Assembly (NCBI GenBank): GCA_000237975.1
Contig: CP003179.1
Location: 2,108,001 to 2,172,000, forward strand
From: Sulfobacillus acidophilus DSM 10332
Lineage (GTDB): Bacteria > Bacillota > Sulfobacillia > Sulfobacillales > Sulfobacillaceae
Length of the DNA stretch: 64,000 nucleotides
Direction of reading: 5' to 3'
The translations under genes and the position numbers were made by a program. Below are positions 1 to 1,821 of the stretch, piece after piece. Each line of letters begins with the position of its first letter. Position 1 is the first letter of the stretch. Under the pieces are notes generated by a model. The model was not told where the DNA came from and made no database searches. It saw only the letters and a list, made by a program, of their open reading frames with translations.

Positions 1-527
1 AACAGATGTTCCATGGCCTGTTTAACCGTGAAAGCCGTTGTTTCACTTCCTTCGACAGCAATGAGCGTTTGAATTCCTAGCTCGGCAGCGCAGGCAGCAC
101 CAATGGCGACGCGGTCATATGGGACGAACTTTTGATGATCATCGCCAGTACTCAAGTTTAATTCTGTTAATCCTGCATCAACGAGCGGCTCAAGACGAGC
201 CAATGCGGCTCGTCTTGACGTAGCCCAGTATCCGTTGGTTACACATCGTACCGAAAGGCCTTGCGAAGAGGCGCGTTTCACAGAGGTGACCAGGTCGCCC
301 CGTAGTAGGAAACATTCTCCCCCACTAAATACTACCATCTTTAACGTCGAAAATTCGCGAGCCCGGTCAATCACATCAAGTATATCGGGCAATGACAGGC
401 GCTGATGTAGTTGGGGTCCACATTCAAAACAACATTCCTGACATGCAGCGGTACATTGATACGTGGCAAGGATTGTCATTGTTGTGGGACCTAGCTGAAC
501 CCGATCACGAACGAAGTCTGGTACCAC
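1..527 (-). CDS. Radical SAM enzyme, C-terminus beyond the window edge
   Basis: Translated from the minus strand, this frame stays open to base 1, so only about the first 175 residues are present. The GTG start at 525-527 follows a GAGGGGG ribosome site. Near residue 22 is CTAACQECCFEC, which contains the CxxxCxxC motif that binds the 4Fe-4S cluster of radical SAM enzymes plus two extra cysteines. Further on is FSGGECFLL, matching the SAM-binding GGE motif, and then a TGDDHQKFVP stretch. The family makes a 5'-deoxyadenosyl radical and many members modify peptides. It lies downstream of three small genes on the same strand, one of which has a strange Val/Asn-rich region, so a peptide-modifying role is inferred. 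The C-terminus, where a SPASM or other domain would sit, is not visible. Confidence 0.85.
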   Translation of the reverse strand, partial: MVPDFVRDRVQLGPTTMTILATYQCTAACQECCFECGPQLHQRLSLPDILDVIDRAREFSTLKMVVFSGGECFLLRGDLVTSVKRASSQGLSVRCVTNGYWATSRRAALARLEPLVDAGLTELNLSTGDDHQKFVPYDRVAIGAACAAELGIQTLIAVEGSETTAFTVKQAMEHL

Positions 528-588
528 GATTATCCCCCTCACTTGTTCCGCGAACGTGAAATGATACTCCTCTGAACAATAGTTACGA

Positions 589-825
589 TTAACTGGCTTC
601 GGGTGCAGCCGATTCGACTGACACCGAATAGTCCAAGGCTTCGAGACGCCGAATTGCCCGGCGGACCACGGCCTGATCATCCTGCTGGTTAAAGTCCTTG
701 GCGCCAAAATCTTCGTAGACGGCCCCCGTGTGCGCAAGAACGCATAGATCGCGATCAGGATGTGGCGCCCCGGTCGCCATCGGTCGTGCGCGAGGCTTTG
801 CTGCCTTTGCAGGTGCGCGGAGCAT
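589..825 (-). CDS. Small 78-aa protein of unknown function; possible peptide precursor
   Basis: I do not recognise a family. The ATG at 823-825 has a good AAAGGAG ribosome site six bases upstream, and that site overlaps the stop codon of the preceding gene, so the two are probably translationally coupled. The N-terminus is basic and rich in Ala and Pro. The middle contains DRDLCVLAHTGAVYEDFG with a single Cys. The C-terminal half is charged and probably helical. It sits between the Val/Asn-rich protein and the radical SAM enzyme. It could be a precursor peptide or a small helper; nothing in the sequence decides between these. Confidence 0.6.
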   Translation of the reverse strand: MLRAPAKAAKPRARPMATGAPHPDRDLCVLAHTGAVYEDFGAKDFNQQDDQAVVRRAIRRLEALDYSVSVESAAPEAS

Positions 826-836
826 GAGCGTCTCCT

Positions 837-1484
837 TTAGGCCTGAATTCCTAACAATTGCTCTTTATGTTGTACCAAACTGTGGAATTCTGCGGCCATA
901 GCGTTTTGTACGGATCGTGCAAACCCAACACCACTCACCATGTAGGCAGCTTGGGCCGCGCGCTGATATCCAATCTTTTGCTCTGGCGCGGGTACCCCGA
1001 GCGGAAACACAGGGATAACTAGGGCTATCGCCGCTACAACTACTACTACCGCCCCAACCTCATAACCAACGTAGACGTTTACGTCATAGCCGAGATTAAC
1101 ATTTACACGCGTATTGACGGTTGCAGACTCCGGTTGCGCCGCGTCCAAGGTAATTAGGTGGATGGAATTCAAAATTTGCTCGCGATCCGGGATCAATCGT
1201 CTATCGCGCAATGCATTGATGAATCGGTTTGGGTCTTGATCATCGGCATCGTATTCTAGGCAGAAATGCAAGAGCTCTACGGATGCATCTGACCCGTACG
1301 ACTTAAGGGCCGTGTACCACTGGCCTGGGTTGAACTCAGATTCCTCCAGAAGATTCACTAAGCCTTCAGATGGGGCCCAATCCCCCAGTGGCAGTCTGGT
1401 CCCTACCCGCTCGACGACAGCCTCATCTCTCGTGGTGGGAATTCCGTACTTGCGATCCTGTATCAGAGGTAATTCTAATTCCAT
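837..1484 (-). CDS. Protein with alternating Val/Asn region and poly-Val segment; candidate modified peptide substrate
   Basis: About 215 residues from the chosen ATG at 1482-1484, which has AAAGGAG twelve bases upstream; an in-frame ATG at 1532 adds 16 residues but has no ribosome site. The N-terminal 110 residues are acidic and look globular. A segment starting near residue 121 alternates Asn and Val (VNTRVNVNLGYDVNVYVG) and runs into a very hydrophobic stretch (GAVVVVVAAIALVIPVF). A basic, Gln-rich tail follows. The hydrophobic part could be a simple transmembrane helix. The Val/Asn alternation also recalls the cores of polytheonamide-type peptides, whose radical SAM epimerases create alternating D-residues. 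The adjacent radical SAM gene makes that worth testing, but the protein is long for a precursor and lacks a leader I recognise. Confidence 0.65.
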   Translation of the reverse strand: MELELPLIQDRKYGIPTTRDEAVVERVGTRLPLGDWAPSEGLVNLLEESEFNPGQWYTALKSYGSDASVELLHFCLEYDADDQDPNRFINALRDRRLIPDREQILNSIHLITLDAAQPESATVNTRVNVNLGYDVNVYVGYEVGAVVVVVAAIALVIPVFPLGVPAPEQKIGYQRAAQAAYMVSGVGFARSVQNAMAAEFHSLVQHKEQLLGIQA

Positions 1485-1593
1485 GATAGTCGAAAGCTCC
1501 TTTCCGTTCCGAGGATCAATCGCGGTGCTCATAGAAGGTGAATCACTGCATAGACAACTACAATTTTCAACTGTGACCTCTGGTCATGAGACG

Positions 1594-1821
1594 TTACAGC
1601 CTGTATCGGTCTGTATCCGCCGGATAGATGTCTTCGACGTCATCCTCCAGGACGGCAATCGCGTCGAGACCGCCCTTGGCAACTGCTAGGATTTGTTGTT
1701 GAAAAAGGGCCGGGTACTCGGATTTACAGGCACGACAAACTATCACGAAGAGGATGGACATTGGTCGAACATCATAATCCGTCCATAGACGGCACTTCGG
1801 ACAAAAATACTTATTTTCCAT
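1594..1821 (-). CDS. Small zinc-ribbon protein
   Basis: A 75-residue protein starting at an ATG with AAGGAAG just upstream. Two Cys pairs, CPKC near residue 8 and CRAC near residue 30, are spaced as in a zinc ribbon. The strand between them (SILFVIVC) is hydrophobic. The C-terminal half is acidic. It is the first gene of the minus-strand locus that leads to the radical SAM enzyme, with gaps of 60 to 110 bases between genes. Zinc binding is inferred from the Cys spacing. Its role is unknown: it could bind nucleic acid, regulate, or help hold the peptide substrate. Confidence 0.65.
   Translation of the reverse strand: MENKYFCPKCRLWTDYDVRPMSILFVIVCRACKSEYPALFQQQILAVAKGGLDAIAVLEDDVEDIYPADTDRYRL

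Follow-up and report, generated by a model that had tools for sequence, protein, structure and literature searches.

The first genes of a 64,000-nucleotide stretch of the Sulfobacillus acidophilus DSM 10332 genome (the window; G000:C1:2108001-2172000, in a genome of 3.56 Mb on two contigs) raise the question of what their radical S-adenosylmethionine (SAM) enzyme acts on, and what kind of product results. The original prediction proposed a radical SAM peptide-modification locus from four minus-strand open reading frames (ORFs) in a row, encoding a small zinc-ribbon protein, a Val/Asn-rich protein, a peptide of 78 amino acids (aa) and a radical SAM enzyme with a CxxxCxxC motif and two extra Cys, and all four ORFs are present at the positions given. 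Because the minus-strand genes run past the window start, the adjoining stretch was also analysed. The order of transcription is a 75-aa protein with two CxxC pairs, a 231-aa V/N-rich protein, the 78-aa ORF, a 358-aa radical SAM enzyme, a 65-aa DUF5808-like peptide, a YhfC-like membrane protein of ~230 aa and a 579-aa ATP-binding cassette (ABC) exporter, the last three lying outside the window, 3′ of the radical SAM gene. The gene set had looked unfamiliar because part of the cluster, namely the exporter, the membrane proteins and the region with the epimerase signature, falls beyond the window start. Taken together, the locus is probably a cluster for a ribosomally synthesized and post-translationally modified peptide (RiPP), in which an EpeE-type epimerase would act on the V/N-rich core of the 231-aa protein to give an exported, membrane-active product containing D-residues.

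The window begins inside the radical SAM gene, which is complete and intact in the genome. Its ORF begins with a GTG codon at position 527, preceded by a Shine-Dalgarno-like GAGGGGG. Its best NCBIfam match was TIGR04078 (YydG epimerase), and its best PDB match by sequence was EpeE of B. subtilis. As the window's own enzyme lies partly outside the window, the fold was tested with the AlphaFold model of an Alicyclobacillus relative (57% identical, pLDDT 92). A Foldseek search matched this model to EpeE (8ai1-8ai6, E 9e-17, TM 0.71-0.79), and in a fold comparison EpeE gave a Z of 28 over 313 residues with an identity of only ~15%, the next family being SuiB at Z 18.6.

The window's enzyme carries the CxxxCxxC motif, the auxiliary-cluster Cys residues and the H-donor Cys of the EpeE type: C25, C29, C32, C226, C244, C245, C309 and C312 are all common to the enzyme and EpeE in an alignment of 53 sequences. 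The single departure in that alignment was L077, in which Ser replaces the second Cys of the CC pair, and all eight were kept without exception in an alignment of 33 enzymes. C245 corresponds in the alignment to C223 of EpeE, which acts as H donor there and is the residue mutated in the C223A structures. A critical Cys serving as H-atom donor is a described feature of such epimerases (PMC8326336). In a tree, the window's enzyme fell within a 40-row clade (support 100/99) separate from EpeE, which formed a long branch and was represented by a fragment taken from printed alignments. The 40-row clade also excluded the genome's other YydG-like enzyme. Assignment to the EpeE (YydG) epimerase type is well supported by sequence and model, and from it we infer the L-to-D conversion itself.

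The likely substrate, judged from sequence, is the 231-aa protein. It has the highest V/I/N content among the 15 ORFs around, and its V/N-rich core, VNTRVNVNLGYDVNVYVGYEVGAVVVVVAAIALVI, alternates beyond the expectation from composition (z 3.46, p 0.001). The leader contains YGIP and an FIxxL-LI segment. A model of the precursor candidate showed confident helices in the leader (within residues 56-123) and in the tail (residues 189-226), with a low-confidence core between them. Foldseek returned no match for this model, and NCBIfam profiles, including those for the nitrile hydratase-like leader and TIGR04032, gave no family match. A sequence search of 61 related genomes found only the 231-aa protein itself; counterparts were therefore located by position beside the enzyme.

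The enzyme clade has 40 members in nine phyla (Bacillota, Pseudomonadota, Actinomycetota, Bacteroidota, Verrucomicrobiota, Acidobacteriota, Elusimicrobiota, Ignavibacteriota and Deinococcota). A precursor candidate of 160-390 aa lies beside the enzyme in 40 of 40 members, a count that is not blind, since candidates were picked by position and V/A-rich content. The core was less clear in L059 and L075, and the L052 precursor is truncated at a contig end. In Paenibacillus ginsengarvi (L034 9132-17003) the candidate forms the N-terminal part of a reading frame exceeding 2600 aa, which has CarboxypepD_reg-like, malectin and MG2 domains. The counterpart gene in S. harzensis and WH4.bin53 extends right up to the enzyme gene or overlaps it. 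Clade precursors often combine a YGxP leader motif with a V/A/N-rich alternating core, and many from Gram-negative bacteria start with MKRR and a signal-like segment. The motif [YF]GxP occurred in the first 50 residues of 19 of the 37 clade precursors tested, compared with 2.1% of 910 other ORFs. Among the ORFs of each locus, the V/I/N maximum of the precursor candidate ranked first in 24 of 39 cases.

Alternation was assessed in a 40-residue window chosen by composition alone and compared with shuffles. These windows alternated beyond the shuffles (mean z 0.95, combined 6.2, for 42 partly related sequences), while leader windows gave -0.2. The clearest alternating cores were those of the Thermus plasmid pTA14 (NANWKVNANVHYNVNTNLNVSTNANFNYNANYNYN) and Eleftheria. 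A separate observation concerns Granulicella (L072 6955-7971), whose precursor candidate has a region of more than 100 residues in which hydrophobic residues alternate with acidic or other polar ones. More distant enzymes (L081, L082, L076, L078 and L087) adjoin Pro/Ile-rich repeat proteins (Fibrobacter) or Glu/Thr/Ser-rich proteins (Nitrospiraceae, Desulfobacterales, Chloroflexaceae), which may be further substrates for this type of enzyme.

The 78-aa ORF, tried as a precursor peptide, was rejected. It had five other matches in the genome, each within a frame of 417-465 aa. Its DNA is 83% identical to one genomic copy across 192 bp, and the full-length copy is an IS110 transposase (NF033542, 2.6e-77), which identifies the ORF as the 3′-terminal piece of such a transposase gene. 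No counterpart was found between precursor and enzyme in the two closest relatives, S. harzensis and WH4.bin53, and none in plasmids. Whether the small genes stay with the enzyme in relatives had been set beforehand as a test of the prediction: the Val/Asn-rich counterpart does stay, whereas the 78-aa ORF is absent. The proposal of a peptide-modification locus is thus well supported, by the EpeE-type enzyme and the precursor candidate beside every clade enzyme, with the 78-aa peptide removed from it.

The accessory genes are compatible with export and immunity. The ABC exporter is common to this cluster and that of S. harzensis (8e-129). The 65-aa protein has one hydrophobic segment and is weakly DUF5808-like (0.043); its relatives adjoin two sister enzymes (8e-44, 2e-11). 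Sister clusters contain an SdpI protein (5e-12) or a DUF1648/DUF5808 protein, and in Thermus an SdpI protein lies directly 3′ of the enzyme. The ~230-aa membrane protein is weakly YhfC-like (0.0076).

A homologous methyltransferase occurs in six loci of the wider set, and no homologue of it was found in the window's genome. It is related to HemK/PrmC, and such enzymes methylate side-chain amides. Its only strong PDB match was 7rc2-7rc6 (5e-15), which is probably AerE of aeronamide; a literature search returned no text naming 7RC2. Precursors beside the methyltransferase are richer in Asn (mean 8.4 versus 2.1 per 50-residue window, permutation p 0.0002, n=5). In the channel-forming proteusins, PoyE and AerE methylate the side chains of Asn (PMC11285071). 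RiPP B12 C-methyltransferases are present in loci L035 and L083.

Other neighbours were seen in some clusters. In Photorhabdus and Intestinirhabdus (L037 11140-15531, L047 and L054), a non-ribosomal peptide synthetase gene with condensation, AMP-binding and PP-binding domains lies right 3′ of the precursor and a small protein, and L047 has two precursors. The Thermus (L110 6248-7270) and Eleftheria (L111 6284-7594) clusters contain homologous serine hydrolases of the beta-lactamase/DD-peptidase kind. Hydrolases of this kind can act at D-residues.

Comparison with known systems places the cluster among the RiPPs with radical SAM epimerases, as a variant. It shares enzyme type, fold and cysteines with the epipeptides (epeXEPAB/yydFGHIJ) of Bacillus subtilis, whose epeX-E-P-AB order resembles the precursor, epimerase, membrane protein and ABC transporter found here (PMC12871923). 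EPE is a 17-aa peptide derived from a short precursor and contains two D-residues (PMC12871923, PMC8326336), EpeE converting two residues (PMC12871923). In contrast, the enzyme here belongs to another clade, and in place of a short EpeX-kind precursor directly before the epimerase there is a 231-aa candidate with a long, internal alternating core, a tail after it and no family match. With the proteusins (polytheonamide/aeronamide; PoyA/PoyD, Aer) the cluster shares a long structured leader and a V-/N-rich core with an every-second-residue sequence pattern, and some relatives have an Asn-amide type methyltransferase and B12 C-methyltransferases (PMC11285071). PoyD epimerizes every second residue (PMC8326336). 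Unlike proteusins, the precursor here gave no match to a nitrile hydratase-like leader and has a tail after the core, and the enzyme is EpeE-like and not of the PoyD type. These differences lower membership in either class, not likeness in mode of action.

A third resemblance is to the SdpC (SDP) family. Four clade precursors matched the same region of TIGR04032 (8e-6 to 0.09), several clusters contain SdpI or DUF1648 proteins, and the core is internal with a tail, as in SdpC. However, all of these matches are far below the cut-off of 99.2 bits (25.8 for the best relative), and the window's precursor gave none. When 299 genomes of the phylum were searched with TIGR04032, the one match was irrelevant. 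The SDP operon is not known to include a radical SAM gene.

Several points weigh against our interpretation, beside the non-blind choice of precursor candidates. The enzyme's TIGR04078 score of 78.9 bits is far below the cut-off of 300 bits, and by this measure the enzyme is evidently not a YydG equivalog. The cores of several relatives lack alternation. In a core-masked profile search against the other precursors, the window's precursor scored no higher than shuffles; two of six pairwise comparisons reached p ~0.01 each, one between its tail and S. harzensis and one between its leader and Alicyclobacillus. Homology of the window's precursor to the others is the weak point of the argument, being judged from position and layout. 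In an alternative reading, the 231-aa protein is a membrane or structural neighbour and the enzyme acts on another peptide; its hydrophobic stretch could form one transmembrane helix, and the weak core-masked homology and missing family match also lean that way. We regard this as very unlikely, given the counterpart genes that directly precede or overlap the enzyme gene in S. harzensis and WH4.bin53, the combination of YGIP, FIxxL-LI segment and alternating core, and the fact that the sole other small ORF between the 231-aa gene and the enzyme is a transposase tail. That the enzyme has an EpeE-like fold but performs other radical chemistry on the Val-rich core, such as crosslinking or forming cyclopropylglycine from Val as TvgB does, is improbable. 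Enzymes with such chemistry are known to act on Val-rich repeats (TvgB, PMC9062424), and the low identity to EpeE favours it, but no TVGG-like repeat was found in the cores, the H-donor Cys is kept in all aligned enzymes but one, and EpeE stands far above other maturases in the fold comparison.

The IS110 remnant between precursor and enzyme means that the window's copy may be poorly expressed. Together with an ISL3 transposase gene upstream of the cluster and transposase-like genes downstream (read by eye), it raises the question of whether the cluster is a decayed remnant, cut off by insertion sequences, from which nothing is made. Within the class the cluster is uncommon and scattered (3 of 154 genomes), and a related genome, G002, has a broken copy (L018 5797-6764) with the enzyme in two pieces with stops and a precursor fragment. 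The cluster has therefore been lost as well as gained in this family. Such patchiness and breakage are also as expected of a mobile competition trait. Matches in a promoter scan of the locus were not above chance, and terminator-like sites numbered 11 against 5.5 expected. Against decay, the reading frames of precursor, enzyme and exporter are all intact in the genome, and the enzyme has all its catalytic residues; we consider decay unlikely.

We favour an active epimerase cluster. The epimerase would use a 5′-deoxyadenosyl radical to remove the alpha-H from V/N-rich core residues of the 231-aa precursor, and Cys245 would return H from the opposite face to give D-residues, probably several and at every second position. 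Leader and tail would then be removed, for which the YhfC-like membrane protein is the candidate, and the 579-aa ABC transporter would carry the core out of the cell. Most likely, the resulting peptide is membrane-active and directed against other bacteria, with the DUF5808-like 65-aa protein as the candidate for immunity. We propose a D-residue membrane-active peptide because an EpeE-type enzyme, an exporter, immunity-like proteins and alternating cores occur together, by analogy with epipeptides and polytheonamide.

Features of the locus within the window
Feature	Position	Strand	Remarks
EpeE-type radical SAM enzyme (N-terminal 175 of 358 aa)	3..527	-	PF04055; TIGR04078 best NCBIfam match; ends outside the window at G000:C1:2107451
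78-aa ORF, 3′ remnant of IS110 transposase gene	589..825	-	DNA match 589-779; between precursor and enzyme
231-aa precursor candidate	837..1532	-	Adjoins enzyme as in 39 relatives; YGIP; alternating core; helical leader and tail in model
Precursor core, residues 136-175, V/N then V-rich; proposed epimerization region	1008..1127	-	Alternation, V/I/N content, low model confidence
Leader motif YGIP, residues 29-32 of precursor	1437..1448	-	[YF]GxP enriched in clade precursors
75-aa protein, two CxxC pairs	1594..1821	-	Homologue near S. harzensis cluster

The 75-aa protein is matched by a homologue encoded on the opposite strand close to the S. harzensis cluster (2.9e-17). Its two CxxC pairs, the sole basis for calling it a zinc-ribbon protein, are present; a Pfam search gave no significant match.

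The same genome contains a second YydG-like cluster (L022 5490-8716; G000:C1 about 685.5-688.7 kb), encoding a 116-aa precursor candidate ending in GYGLPAIALLLVVVALYVWVVG, a radical SAM enzyme (TIGR04078, 122.8 bits), an ABC ATPase and a permease. Enzymes related to that of the second cluster occur with the same transporter pair in Hydrogenibacillus (L085), which has a similar 120-aa precursor, and in Thermogemmatispora (L079). Radical SAM matches were also present in related genomes G052, G058 and G051.

EpeE-type enzymes have been described for short epipeptides, which carry two D-residues, and channel-forming D/L peptides for the PoyD-type proteusins. The cluster and its relatives probably represent, by analogy with these systems, a RiPP family that joins an epipeptide-type epimerase to a proteusin/polytheonamide-like substrate and makes membrane-active peptides with D-residues. 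More tentatively, and with somewhat less than an even chance, they form a second, independent route to polytheonamide-like, D/L-alternating beta-helical peptides, in which EpeE-type epimerases act repeatedly on long precursors, some clusters adding Asn-amide N-methylation and B12 C-methylation, in at least nine phyla and perhaps derived from SdpC-like toxins. A literature search turned up no account of EpeE-type enzymes paired with such precursors, with subscription journals thinly covered and earlier notice possible. The relatives with the same layout, in at least nine phyla, look like a membrane-active peptide family not found described in the searchable literature. A family joining an EpeE-type enzyme to a proteusin-kind substrate would connect two RiPP classes with epimerases regarded as unrelated. 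It would also provide dozens of small clusters amenable to testing in cultivable bacteria, including Thermus, Streptococcus, Photorhabdus, Enterococcus and Xanthomonas, and would make testable how the EpeE fold selects single versus repeated epimerization sites.
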